Assembly (NCBI GenBank): GCA_900320055.1
Contig: ONQS01000014.1
Coordinates: 1 to 59,618 of the forward strand
DNA: 59,618 nt
Origin: an uncultured Prevotellaceae bacterium
GTDB taxonomy: Bacteria; Bacteroidota; Bacteroidia; Bacteroidales; Muribaculaceae
Reading direction: 5' to 3'
Shown: one piece after another, positions 1,971-5,504 of the stretch
Position numbering within the stretch: the first letter of the stretch is position 1
Layout: every line of letters starts with the position of its first letter
Program-made: the position numbers and the translations under genes
The notes under the pieces: generated by a model
The model's input: only the letters and a program-made list of their open reading frames with translations
Told to the model about the DNA's origin: nothing
Databases searched by the model: none

Positions 1971-2510
1971 ATGGCACAACGAAAAAATGAACATGGGCTG
2001 ACCCCGAAGCAGGAGGCTTTCTGCCATGCCTACGTCAATGCCTATGGCACTGAGGACTTCGGCAACGCCACCGCTGCGCTGCTGAAAGTATATGGCTACA
2101 AGAGCCAAAAAGGGGCATGGGAGGCCGCATCTCGCTTGATGAATGACAGCAAGGTGACCGCAAGGTTGAACGAACTCCTGTTGGAGAAGATCAGCGAAGC
2201 TGACGCTAACGCTCAGTCGCTCATCGACCGCGACAAGATGGCTGCAAATTTCGACGATGCGCTGCTATGGGCACCCGACCCCGAGACTGGACGAGACATG
2301 AAGATAAACATCACCAAGCTGCCGAAATGGATACGGGTGCTCGGCACCTGGAAGACCATTGGTGGTAGAGCCGTCTTTGTCGTTGACAAGGAGGCTGCGA
2401 GAGAGCGACTGCACAAGGCACTCATCAAGACGAAAGTCGAGCATAGTATGTCGGATGATTTCCCGATGGCTGACGGCAAGGTCAGCATAACGTTCCGCAA
2501 AAATGTTTGA
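1971..2510 (+). CDS. Terminase small subunit
   Basis: A 179-residue DNA-recognition subunit of the packaging motor. The N-terminus (LTPKQEAFCHAYVNAYG, about residues 10-26) and the following ATAALLKVYGYKSQKGAWEAASRL form the helix-turn-helix typical of the Terminase_2/XtmA-like family. The gene overlaps the large-subunit start by 8 bases, the usual arrangement for translational coupling. The small subunit binds the packaging-initiation site and stimulates the large-subunit ATPase. The C-terminal part contains a basic, beta-rich stretch (ADGKVSITFRKNV). The call rests on motif resemblance plus position directly upstream of TerL. Confidence 0.85.
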   Translation: MAQRKNEHGLTPKQEAFCHAYVNAYGTEDFGNATAALLKVYGYKSQKGAWEAASRLMNDSKVTARLNELLLEKISEADANAQSLIDRDKMAANFDDALLWAPDPETGRDMKINITKLPKWIRVLGTWKTIGGRAVFVVDKEAARERLHKALIKTKVEHSMSDDFPMADGKVSITFRKNV

Positions 2511-4179
2511 TATACCAGGCGAAGGATTGTCACCGAACGCCTTTTGGCTTCTGCGCTGCACTCTCGATCCAAGTTTGCGGTACATCGTCATGTATGGCGG
2601 TTCTTCGTCCGGCAAATCCTACTCAGCGGCACAAATATTGTCGTTACTTGCATACTACGAGGGAGGAAACACCCTCGTAATGCGCAAGGTTGGAGCGTCG
2701 ATAGAGAAAACTATCTATGCTGATTTCCGTGCGGCCCTCAACGGCATTGAGACGCTTGATGGCAAGTATCGCCTAAAGCAGAACAGTATCGTGTTCCCGT
2801 CGAAAGGGACACGCATAGACTTCAGTGGATTGGACGATCCAGAGAAGATCAAGGGTATCAGTCAGTACAAGCGAGTGTTCTTGGATGAGTTGAGCGAGTA
2901 TGACGAGAGCGACTTCAAGCAAATCCGTTTGCGCCTGCGTGGAAAAGCGGGGCAGCAAATTCTCGCCGCCTTCAACCCAATCAGCGAGGAACACTGGATT
3001 AAAAAACACTGGTTCGACAAGGAAGAATGGAATGAGATACCGATGGCTTTGGAGTTCGATGGTGTGCCATTGCCTACCAAGTATTGCACTGTTAAGTCGG
3101 TGCGGATGAACAGCGCAAAGCAAATCCTCAACCCCAAAACGGGCGAGTTCGAGGAGCATGCGCCCGACACCATCGTCATCCAATCAACCTACTTGAACAA
3201 CTTCTGGGTGGTGGGCTCGCCTGACGGCACCTACGGCTACTACGATTACCAGGCTATCGCCAACTTCGAGCGTGACCGCATCAACGACCCCGACTATTAC
3301 CAGGTCTATGCCTTGGGCGAGTGGGGCCACATCCGCACTGGTGCCGAGTTCTTCCCCTCGTTTAATCGTGGGACTGTCTGCGGTAATCATCCGTTCAACC
3401 CCGAGTTGCCCATCCACGTCTGTATGGACTCCAACGTACTGCCGTATGTCACGGCCACGTTCTTCCAAAAAGAATATAAGCCCGACGATGTTCAGCAAGT
3501 TACGCAGTTTGATGAACTGCCTATTGAGTCACCAAACAACAGTGCGAGAAAGGCGGCGAGGGTCATAGCCGGGAGATTGCGGGAATACCACTACGAGGAC
3601 AAGGTCTATCTGCATGGTGACGCATCGGGCAAGGCCGCGAACACCATTGACGAGCAGAACCGCTCGTTCTTTGACCTGGTCATCGACGAGCTGGAGAAGG
3701 AAGGCTTTGAGGTGGTGGACTGCATCGGCAAGAAGAACCCGAGTGTGTCCGCGTCGGGCGAGTTCATCAATGCCGTGTGGGACGGCCGTGTCCCCGGTGT
3801 AGTTATCAACATTGATAATTCCTGTGTCACGAGCATTGACGATTACCAGGCCGTGCAGAAGGACGAGAACGGGGCCATGGCGAAGATGAAGGTCAAGGAT
3901 CCCGTGAGCAAGCTGTCGTATGAGGCACATGGCCACTGTTTTGTCGGCGACACGATGGTAGCCACCGACCATGGAGATGTGCCAATCAAGGACGTAAAGA
4001 TAGGCGACCGAGTTTTAACAAGATTTGGCTTTTCCAATGTCTATAATTCATTGTGTACCAGTAGGAATACTCGATATTTTTTCGTAACTTTGTGTGGTGA
4101 AACACTACGTTGCACCTATGACCACCCGATATACACCGATAGGGGGTTTGTTGGGGGTTTGTTTCCGCTTATCAGTTGA
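2503..4179 (+). CDS. Terminase large subunit, N-extein plus N-half of an intein (frame-broken)
   Basis: The first 478 residues are a phage packaging ATPase/nuclease. Walker A is GGSSSGKS (about residues 33-40), Walker B is VFLDE (about 126-130), and two nuclease aspartates lie in HVCMDSN and LHGDASG. After EAHGH the protein changes into an intein: Cys1 at 3937 starts CFVGDTMVATDHGDVPI (block A), and GETLRCTYDHPIYT (block B, TxxH) ends near 4138. The frame then hits an 11-bp tandem duplication and stops at 4179 with a foreign tail. Removing one repeat copy joins it to the frame ending at 5504. As the sequence stands, full-length terminase needs frame restoration or a ribosomal shift. Confidence 0.85.
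   Translation: MFDIPGEGLSPNAFWLLRCTLDPSLRYIVMYGGSSSGKSYSAAQILSLLAYYEGGNTLVMRKVGASIEKTIYADFRAALNGIETLDGKYRLKQNSIVFPSKGTRIDFSGLDDPEKIKGISQYKRVFLDELSEYDESDFKQIRLRLRGKAGQQILAAFNPISEEHWIKKHWFDKEEWNEIPMALEFDGVPLPTKYCTVKSVRMNSAKQILNPKTGEFEEHAPDTIVIQSTYLNNFWVVGSPDGTYGYYDYQAIANFERDRINDPDYYQVYALGEWGHIRTGAEFFPSFNRGTVCGNHPFNPELPIHVCMDSNVLPYVTATFFQKEYKPDDVQQVTQFDELPIESPNNSARKAARVIAGRLREYHYEDKVYLHGDASGKAANTIDEQNRSFFDLVIDELEKEGFEVVDCIGKKNPSVSASGEFINAVWDGRVPGVVINIDNSCVTSIDDYQAVQKDENGAMAKMKVKDPVSKLSYEAHGHCFVGDTMVATDHGDVPIKDVKIGDRVLTRFGFSNVYNSLCTSRNTRYFFVTLCGETLRCTYDHPIYTDRGFVGGLFPLIS
4142..4163 (+). repeat. 11-bp perfect tandem duplication breaking the TerL-intein frame
   Basis: GGGGGTTTGTT occurs at 4142-4152 and again at 4153-4163. 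With both copies the reading frame runs into TGA at 4177-4179. With one copy the translation continues RGFVSAYQLRVGDTIVK, which matches the usual intein pattern after block B (short strand, then LxVGDxV). The duplication is therefore very likely a recent slippage or recombination product, and it could revert by the same route. A sequencing or assembly error in a G-rich tract is the main alternative. Confidence 0.85.
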
Positions 4180-5504
4180 GGGTTGGTGATACGATTGTCA
4201 AACTTAAAGATGGTAAATTATGCAGAGAGAGACTACAACGTACAACGGTTGCAAGTTCCATCGCTACCCTGATGCAAAACGTGAGAGCGATAGGCGATAC
4301 TTTAAGGGTTGGGTTGAGATTGAAGGGAAGTGGACAAAAATCACACTCCACCGCTATATGTGGCTCGTTGAGCGTGGCCCAATTCCAGAAGGTTATCATG
4401 TTCATCACGTTGATGGCGATTACAGTAATAACACAATCGACAACCTGGCTCTGTTGTCAGCTGGCGAGCATGAGTCGCTACATAGTGAGAACGCTTCTGA
4501 AGATGTCAAGAAAAAGCGCACCCAAGCCTTGCGCGACAACAGCGACAAGGCTGCCGAATGGCACCACTCCGAAGAAGGTCGCAAGTGGCATTCTCAAAAC
4601 TCTAAAAAGCAAATGGCAGAGCGTGAGTTCAAGACTTACACTTGCCAATGCTGTGGAAAAGAGTTCCGAAGCCGTTCTATCCAGGGTGGCAAATTCTGCG
4701 GGAATAGTTGCAAGTCAAAATGGCGCAGAGACCAAGGACTTGACAACGTGGAACGTGTTTGTGCAGAGTGTGGCTCTAAATTTGTTGTCAATCGCTACTC
4801 AAAGCAGAAGTATTGTAGCAGGTCGTGTGCCTCTAAGCATCGCAGGTCGCTGCGAGGTGTATGACATTTCGGTGGATGCCGCCGAGTTCTTTGCCGATGG
4901 CATCCTTGTGCATAACTGTTCCGACACGCTGCGCTATGCGGTCGTTGACCTGCTGCGCTCCCAGTTCACCGAGTTCTCGATGGGACGCAAGCGCAGCCTC
5001 TACAACGAGAGCGAGTTCAAGTTTTTCAATCCCGCCACCGAGTACGAGTACGACACCACGATGGTCTATGTGCTGCCGAACTTCGGCGGTGTGTTCTCCC
5101 TGGTGCGTATCGGCAAGGTGGGCGACCGCTGGCACCTCACCGATGTGTGCTGCCGCACAGTCAAGGGCAACGACGAGATAGTGTCCGCCGTTACGGAGAT
5201 GTCGGCCGACCGCTATGTGGTAGAATGCCAACAGGCGTACTTCCCAATGGTGCGGGAGCTCCGTGCCTCCCTGGGCGATGTCGCCGTGGTGAAGATGGGC
5301 AGCGACCACAGGACGAGGATAGCAGCGACGAGCGACTGGATCAGGGCTCACGTCCATATCGACCCCGAGCGGATGAACGAGCAGGAGTACGGCCGTTTCG
5401 TCAACGACATGCTGGACTACAACGACGAGTCGCCAGCAGAGGTTGCGGTGGCCAGTGCGGCCTTGTCGGGTGCCGCTCGCGTCATCATCCGCAACGGGCT
5501 ATAA
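4164..5504 (+). CDS. Terminase large subunit, intein C-half plus C-extein
   Basis: In the frame after the 11-bp duplication, translation runs without a stop from the repeat to TAA at 5502-5504. It begins with intein residues SAYQLRVGDTIVKLKDGKL, continues through about 210 residues with no recognisable fold (the region under the HNH gene), then gives blocks F and G and ends the intein at N4916. The 195-residue C-extein begins CSDTLRYAVVDLL, where the Asp should be the third metal ligand of the RNase-H-like nuclease, and ends with the TerL tail. No clear independent start is visible, so this part depends on the upstream frame. Confidence 0.8.
   Translation, partial: SAYQLRVGDTIVKLKDGKLCRERLQRTTVASSIATLMQNVRAIGDTLRVGLRLKGSGQKSHSTAICGSLSVAQFQKVIMFITLMAITVITQSTTWLCCQLASMSRYIVRTLLKMSRKSAPKPCATTATRLPNGTTPKKVASGILKTLKSKWQSVSSRLTLANAVEKSSEAVLSRVANSAGIVASQNGAETKDLTTWNVFVQSVALNLLSIATQSRSIVAGRVPLSIAGRCEVYDISVDAAEFFADGILVHNCSDTLRYAVVDLLRSQFTEFSMGRKRSLYNESEFKFFNPATEYEYDTTMVYVLPNFGGVFSLVRIGKVGDRWHLTDVCCRTVKGNDEIVSAVTEMSADRYVVECQQAYFPMVRELRASLGDVAVVKMGSDHRTRIAATSDWIRAHVHIDPERMNEQEYGRFVNDMLDYNDESPAEVAVASAALSGAARVIIRNGL
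4220..4864 (+). CDS. HNH homing endonuclease nested out of frame inside the intein
   Basis: A 214-residue HNH endonuclease with its own ATG; a TAA six bases upstream (4214-4216) in the same frame shows that it is not a fusion to the intein. The core is HRYMWLVERGPIPEGYHVHH followed by VDGDYSNNTIDNLALLSAGE, the phage HNH_3 pattern. The C-terminal third holds paired zinc-finger cysteines (CQCCGKEF, FCGNSCKSKW, CAECGSKF, YCSRSCASKH), a likely DNA-binding part. It lies in frame 2, while the intein frame (frame 3 after the duplication) stays open across the whole gene. Its TGA (4862-4864) overlaps the start of intein block F. It probably makes the cut that lets the intein spread. Confidence 0.9.
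   Translation: MQRETTTYNGCKFHRYPDAKRESDRRYFKGWVEIEGKWTKITLHRYMWLVERGPIPEGYHVHHVDGDYSNNTIDNLALLSAGEHESLHSENASEDVKKKRTQALRDNSDKAAEWHHSEEGRKWHSQNSKKQMAEREFKTYTCQCCGKEFRSRSIQGGKFCGNSCKSKWRRDQGLDNVERVCAECGSKFVVNRYSKQKYCSRSCASKHRRSLRGV

Follow-up and report, generated by a model that had tools for sequence, protein, structure and literature searches.

A 59,618-nucleotide stretch from an uncultured Prevotellaceae bacterium (contig ONQS01000014.1; the whole stretch is called the window here) carries a gene for the terminase large subunit (TerL) that is interrupted by an intein in a motif of the terminase C-terminal nuclease domain. The general view is that the nuclease of an intein is either one of its own domains, fused in frame, or the product of a separate gene. 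Here, we describe what is very probably a phage TerL intein whose DNA also encodes its HNH homing endonuclease, in a second reading frame that overlaps the first. Two selfish functions appear to be combined in a single stretch of DNA. The architecture, its conservation, the empty insertion sites, the constraint on the reading frame, and the stages of decay were all observed computationally.

An HNH gene lies out of frame inside the TerL intein

The features of the interrupted gene are listed in Table 1. The whole intein covers 3937–4916, and its first residue is the Cys at 3937. Class 1 inteins are described by conserved blocks and their hallmarks, namely Cys1, the TxxH of block B, a terminal Asn, and a Cys or Ser at position +1, and the HNH gene of the window is located between blocks B and F. 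Numbering frames by position modulo three, the HNH gene is in frame 2, the TerL N-half and intein N part are in frame 1 (2503–4179), and the intein-C/TerL-C frame is frame 0, which has no stop from 4143 to 5504, i.e., through the entire HNH gene. A previous interpretation made from the letters alone (the sequence-only reading) had proposed a complete HNH gene with its own ATG between blocks B and F, not fused to the intein owing to an in-frame TAA six bases upstream of that ATG, and an intein-C/TerL-C frame free of stops over it. The open reading frame (ORF) coordinates bear out all three proposals. PHROGs 35162 and 30251 match the window intein frame across the HNH overlap, and the Hint_2 match of the window intein is below the Pfam curated cut-off.

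Table 1. Features of the interrupted terminase gene in the window.
Feature	Position	Strand	Evidence
Terminase large subunit (TerL), N-extein	2503..3936	+	Terminase_3 E 3.6e-32; phrog_3717/phrog_2 terminase large subunit
Intein N-terminal splicing part (Cys1, block B TxxH), TerL frame	3937..4149	+	Family hidden Markov model (HMM) E 2e-25, positions 1–72; Hint_2 E 4.6e-5
11-bp tandem duplication without counterpart in L008/L028; shifts the frame between the two intein parts	4142..4163	+	Sequence and alignment
TGA closing the TerL-N/intein-N frame after the duplication; overlaps TTG at 4176 (intein-C frame)	4177..4179	+	
TAA, in frame with HNH, upstream of the HNH start codon	4214..4216	+	
HNH endonuclease gene, 214 amino acids, out of frame with the intein	4220..4864	+	HNH_3 E 2.1e-14; phrog_15471 E 6.5e-42; AlphaFold mean predicted local distance difference test (pLDDT) 94.1
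Intein-C frame, open across the entire HNH gene; overlap probably a poorly structured linker	4143..4916	+	Window frames; homologous L008 stretch of low pLDDT
Intein C-terminal splicing part (blocks F and G, ends His-Asn)	4845..4916	+	Family HMM E 2e-10, match 4845–4919
TerL C-extein, starts with Cys+1 (CSDTLRY)	4917..5504	+	Match in 19 viral loci; 13 intein-less TerLs join there

The nearest relative, locus L008, has a TerL N-half 80% identical to that of the window. Its TerL, intein, and TerL-C form a single 1031-amino-acid frame with the HNH at offset +2, and this is what decided our reading of the window.

The window copy itself has a private defect. An 11-bp unit, GGGGGTTTGTT, is present twice in tandem, and alignment with L008 and L028 places the extra 11 bases in the window only. 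Owing to this duplication, the intein N part is out of frame with the C part, and the frame that comes from TerL-N is closed by the TGA. The sequence-only reading had envisaged one intein frame joining the terminase halves; this holds across the HNH gene, which the frame crosses without a stop, but not between the N and C parts. It had also considered two private frameshifts as a possible source of the arrangement, of which we found one private indel and no in-frame relatives. The splicing residues are present, yet with the intein parts split between frames, the window copy probably makes no spliced TerL in cis, and none at all unless from two chains. The TTG overlapping the TGA could start a separate C half. 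We also noted that G-GGT-TTG at 4155–4161, in the TerL frame of the duplicated repeat, resembles a −1 slippery heptamer. Programmed −1 frameshifting at this site is not favored, as L008 and L028 are without the duplication and need no shift. Among the fetched loci, only L001/L020, which are one contig, are identical to the window copy; over this gene, the protein of L001, an isolate record, is 100% identical to that of the window, and the two genomes may be one and the same.

The nested arrangement recurs in 72 sequence-distinct clusters

Scanning viral contigs with the HNH of the window returned its twin L020 and five weak matches, and a DNA search of phage records with the window TerL gave no match. 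The family was reached through the L008 HNH and an alignment (A2). The HNH-family search took the best 80 of at least 561 relatives among 600 stretches, and a further search gave 26 of 50. Profiles for the intein N part, the intein C part, and the HNH were all built from family members, and our counts describe the fetched loci, with no prevalence claimed.

An HNH match was present in 167 loci, duplicates included. The HNH is at +2 within a contiguous intein in 91 of these; 32 have both intein parts with stops or a frame change between them, 36 are without an intein match, and 8 have one part missing. In none of the 167 is the HNH at +1, and no contiguous one has it in frame. Homologues with the HNH fused in frame, which the sequence-only reading had named as telling against it, were found in none of the 123 loci having an intein N block, an HNH, and a C block (91 contiguous and 32 broken, duplicates included). 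We then dropped 19 rows with matches shorter than ~380 bases and clustered the rest at 90% amino acid identity. The resulting 120 clusters comprise 72 contiguous, 23 broken (21 fractured clusters, the window, and L162), 19 without an intein, and 6 partial. In all 72 contiguous clusters, the HNH lies inside an intein with splicing residues, always at offset +2 and never in frame; these are the out-of-frame relatives for which the sequence-only reading had proposed a search.

The nested layout also occurs in Acinetobacter phage Highwayman, Tetrasphaera phage TJE1, gut phage scaffold MT838676, and Rhodobacteraceae phage OP947163. The records for Highwayman, TJE1, and OP947163 annotate the entire ORF as terminase only. 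Genome contigs carrying nested loci are titled, among others, as Thermoplasmatales and Methanomethylophilaceae archaea, Bacteroides, Parabacteroides, Frankia, Acidobacteria, and Patescibacteria, most of them being metagenome bins whose host naming is only as good as the binning. The TerL N-extein profile, built from 21 ORFs of which 19 are among the 72 clusters, matches 69 of the 72. The three exceptions are L131 and L161, with N-exteins of 21 and 27 amino acids at a contig edge, and L176, with a weak terminase RNase H domain match.

A second sample was chosen by the intein C block of nested members regardless of the HNH. It is biased toward query-like inteins and shares several contigs with the first sample. 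From 454 stretches with 434 relatives, the best 80 were taken, and 76 of these have a contiguous intein with an HNH match at +2. The other four are two mini-inteins without an HNH and two loci cut off near contig ends. In L126 (509–1462) and L117 (571–1563), weak upstream matches to the intein N and C profiles suggest a second intein in the same gene, and the L126 ORF has two intein stretches by Pfam.

The intein frame stays open across the HNH gene

When the window HNH was shuffled among synonymous codons, the intein frame acquired a mean of 1.78 stops (0.91 over the shorter profile match), with a probability of 0.086 of having none. The third frame has 21 stops across the same gene. The window copy alone is thus weak evidence, its open frame being not beyond chance. 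A frame open by chance is possible for this copy taken singly and is rejected by the relatives. Within the stretch matched as HNH, the 72 nested loci have 0 stops in the intein frame (14,265 codons), compared to 111 stops in the 21 split-intein loci and 96 in 18 intein-less loci, one of the 120 clusters having been left out of the stop counts for an ambiguous base. The frame is open in 72 of 72 contiguous clusters and in 0 of 39 split or intein-less ones; as contiguity is itself defined by the open frame, the former figure holds partly by construction, and the contrast is not wholly independent. Six partial loci left out of the comparison have 27 stops, and two of them are open. The sequence-only reading would also have been undermined by homologues whose intein frame is closed across the HNH. 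Among homologues with both intein parts, the closed ones are the 21 clusters split into two genes, and every contiguous one is open.

Shuffling gives an expectation of 2.2 stops per nested locus and a summed log10 P of −105.8 over 73 loci. The requirement that the intein frame stay open restricts the HNH gene to codon neighbors that give no stop there: a Met codon directly before one starting with A reads as a stop in the intein frame, and this pairing was found in 0 of 111 cases in nested HNHs versus 38 of 117 in split and intein-less ones. The third frame has 1,408 stops across the 72 nested loci (~20 per locus), so composition leaves only one alternative frame usable, which accounts for the +2 offset. 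In the HNH frame, 41 nested pairs differ 2350, 1819, and 3950 times at codon positions 1, 2, and 3, respectively. This excess at position 3 and deficit at position 2 is as expected of a protein under selection. Both layers, intein and HNH, look maintained in nested members. Both frames also stay open in L057 (5914–6324), where the HNH gene has an internal deletion and encodes 137 amino acids.

Splicing residues, insertion site, and predicted fold

All 72 contiguous clusters have Cys1 and the terminal Asn, and 70 have Cys or Ser at +1; in the other two, the match ends one residue short. Residues C1, T60, H63, and N323 are invariant in 32 aligned intein members, and all 21 scanned relatives have an Intein_splicing Pfam match (E up to 0.01). 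Empty sites are found in 13 intein-less TerL loci, whose exteins join at the exact junction, GH|CSDTLRY or a variant of it, with a +1 residue of Cys in seven and Ile or Val in six. Of 19 TerL loci found by their C-extein, 17 are without an intein match, the others being L001 and L008; one of the 17, L016, stops short of the site.

Our model of the L008 intein frame has pLDDT values of 89–96 at residues 1–80 and 301–324 and of 62–72 at 281–300. The best solved match of the L008 Hint halves in Foldseek is the gp41-1 intein (6qaz, E 3.3e-7), which is also matched by profile (E 1.4e-18) and which we take to be one of the split inteins of fractured genes. The sequence-only reading had seen no recognizable fold in the overlap. 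This agrees with residues 90–140 and 200–282, where pLDDT is <50, but less so with residues 141–200, which are drawn as helices at 57–76. In the main, then, structure prediction is consistent with folded Hint halves and little structure in the overlap. As in class 1 inteins, splicing residues, a clean insertion with intein-less alleles, and a Hint fold are all found here.

The HNH nuclease

The HNH-motif residues H60, H62, H63, N71, N75, and H84, as well as four Cys, are invariant in 34 aligned members, so the conserved catalytic residues of an HNH homing endonuclease are in place. The window HNH is predicted with a predicted template modeling score (pTM) of 0.51 in addition to the high mean pLDDT. 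Same-family HNHs without an intein match adjoin terminase genes in L069, L070, L072, L073, and L075 (phages BP10, vB_EauM-23, PhiSTP1, PAE1, and SN1). The window also has a second HNH-like ORF at 11–571 (186 amino acids), ~2 kb upstream of TerL, with a weak HNH-profile match at 230–370.

Splicing, internal initiation and HNH expression, cutting, and homing are steps that we infer from sequence. The TerL frame would be read straight through the intein, and the two Hint halves would fold together, with the ~190 residues overlapping the HNH forming a loose linker or loop where other inteins carry the nuclease domain. Cis-splicing would restore TerL. The same message, read from an internal start, would yield a separate HNH nuclease, which may cut intein-less TerL genes at the insertion site, with repair copying the element in. 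With respect to homing, what is observed is the presence/absence pattern of the intein in TerL loci.

Fractured, mini-intein, and remnant forms

In the 21 clusters with a fractured TerL, an N gene with the intein N part is followed by the HNH gene and then by a short ORF that encodes the intein C part together with the TerL C-extein. The intein N part is 94–104 amino acids long in 18 of the 21 and 67, 110, and 133 in the others, and its frame ends before the HNH gene or in the first part of it. L114 and L133 have ~550–750 bases between the intein N part and the HNH. The two mini-inteins without an HNH, L236 and L214, have 133 and 135 amino acids. Among the 76 nested loci of the C-block sample, L222 and L226 (147 amino acids) and L210 (230 amino acids) have HNH remnants with the intein frame open. 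Together, the mini-inteins and remnants look like cases in which an intein has outlived its nuclease, as happens in the usual intein cycle.

A quick HNH tree without bootstrap requires at least three changes between contiguous and fractured states among 95 rows, or 15 changes if the intein-less HNHs are taken as a third state. More than one switch between these two states is probable, though with modest support, and the direction is not readable from the tree. In two phages, Lactobacillus phage CL2 (L071, 1670–2774) and Brochothrix phage BL3 (L076, 1936–2607), the annotated terminase ends inside the intein N part. The intein C part and a short TerL tail follow unannotated in CL2; in BL3, they are within gp3, and only a short HNH remnant is left.

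Points against the reading and alternative explanations

Several observations weigh against a dual-frame intein. The window copy itself carries a frameshift. Fourfold sites differ by 51% in the 41 nested pairs, 59% in 11 split pairs, and 52% in 2 intein-less pairs; the rank test of nested pairs versus all controls gives P = 0.085, with pairs that are not independent. By these comparisons, the overlap residues in the intein frame appear at most slightly more conserved than controls, and for this reason, the overlap seems to act as a linker that is kept open rather than as a domain. The sequence-only reading had called for substitution patterns in both frames, and these proved protein-like in the HNH frame but with at most slight extra constraint in the overlapping intein frame. 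The best solved match of the HNH is weak (the HNH homing endonuclease I-HmuI, E 6e-3, TM-score 0.22–0.27; profile E 0.0074). Eight of 73 nested loci have no ATG near the HNH start, and Shine-Dalgarno matches, for starts picked mechanically, are mostly weak (0–4 nt in 51 of the 65 loci with an ATG). Finally, the archaeal locus L162 (2726–3688) is interrupted in both frames. Both of its stops are TAG, its contig is titled Methanimicrococcus, and its genome has a pyrrolysyl-tRNA synthetase match of 368.6 bits, over the cut-off; in controls, 13 of 14 genomes gave weaker matches, one of them over the cut-off. With TAG read as pyrrolysine, the HNH and intein frames both run through. L162, which had looked like a closed counter-example, is not among the 72.

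The dual-frame intein was weighed against four other explanations. An ordinary intein with an in-frame HNH domain, displaced by indels private to the window copy, has next to no chance of being correct: the window does have one such indel, of 11 bp, but no in-frame fusion occurs in the 123 loci, 65 of 73 nested HNHs have an ATG after an upstream in-frame stop, and the same +2 offset is common to the Tetrasphaera and Acinetobacter phages and to archaeal and Bacteroides genome contigs. We regard as improbable a fractured TerL, in which split-intein halves would be separate genes with a free-standing HNH between them and the open frame an accident. This layout does exist in 21 clusters, and the TTG/TGA overlap at 4176–4179 could start a separate C half in the window, but the 72 contiguous clusters have no stop in 14,265 codons where the split loci have 111. 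HNH genes are common in group I introns, and the HNH might sit in a self-splicing RNA intron inside the intein, leaving the open frame untranslated. We consider this very improbable, as no Rfam family was found at E up to 1 in window 3800–5100, no intron family was found in 15 nested loci at gathering scores, and the 72 open frames would be left unexplained.

It is also possible, though on balance unlikely, that the window copy is a decayed prophage gene in which the arrangement is meaningless. A private frameshift in a packaging gene fits decay, as does the finding that the only identical fetched loci, L001/L020, perhaps come from the same isolate; against it, neither the HNH frame nor the C-extein of the window is interrupted, and the architecture is conserved in relatives. 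Decay can hold for the window copy without holding for the family.

Relation to known systems

Dassa and colleagues reportedly described, in 2009, fractured genes with split inteins that have a free-standing homing endonuclease between the halves. The family resembles these in having a nuclease slot between intein halves, in its 21 relatives fractured in TerL, and in gp41-1 as its best structural match. It differs in that nested members are one contiguous gene, with nuclease and intein overlapping in the same DNA. The 72 contiguous clusters are thus not fractured genes, the 21 relatives are, and the window is ambiguous owing to its duplication. Inteins carrying an HNH endonuclease in frame are said to have been described by Dalgaard and colleagues in 1997. 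Here, the HNH is likewise carried by the intein, but out of frame, and the canonical in-frame endonuclease is found in none of the 123 loci.

The closest parallel that we found is the ShiLan domain. As described by Arsenault, Gosselin, and Gogarten (2025, PMC11855218), it is an HNH encoded out of frame within the methylase gene of an actinophage, has no detectable splicing domain, is expected by its authors to remain in the methylase, and is proposed to have an internal start. The two systems share an HNH gene in another frame of a phage gene that is kept open across it, a patchy distribution, and a proposed internal start. Our case differs in its host frame, a TerL intein that has the splicing residues and occurs in bacterial and probably archaeal viruses. 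An out-of-frame HNH and open host frame are both found in our family (in the window, the duplication breaks that frame ahead of the HNH and leaves it open across the gene), but a splicing domain is detectable in all 21 scanned relatives. PMC12613952 mentions another such case in a methylase. Among the TerL inteins of mycobacteriophages, Kelley et al. (2016, PMC5050341) showed splicing for five and cutting of intein-less TerL for two. These have the same host gene, but all are in the ATPase domain, whereas ours is in a C-terminal nuclease-domain motif. PMC10448857 and PMC12724721 concern free-standing nuclease genes near terminases. The sequence-only reading knew of no described out-of-frame case; ShiLan shows that an out-of-frame HNH in a phage gene was already known, but in the literature searched we found none described in a splicing intein, and a preprint on non-canonical actinophage inteins, which PMC11855218 cites (as ref 7) on the subject of overlapping frames in actinophages, may describe related inteins and hold part of this.

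We tentatively suggest that dual-frame inteins may be a standing, old class of mobile element that inhabits the terminase genes of tailed bacterial and archaeal viruses, locks the splicing protein together with its nuclease in a single piece of DNA, and interconverts with fractured split inteins. The out-of-frame nuclease would then offer a natural route between cis- and trans-splicing, and the window copy, whose duplication created the TTG/TGA overlap, could be on its way to a split form. At least 72 sequence-distinct loci have a nuclease and a splicing element that use the same bases in different frames, and the family allows tests of how two selfish functions shape overlapping genes. Its contiguous, split, and mini-intein members can be compared with one another in the study of split-intein origin, and the long tolerated linker may interest intein engineers.

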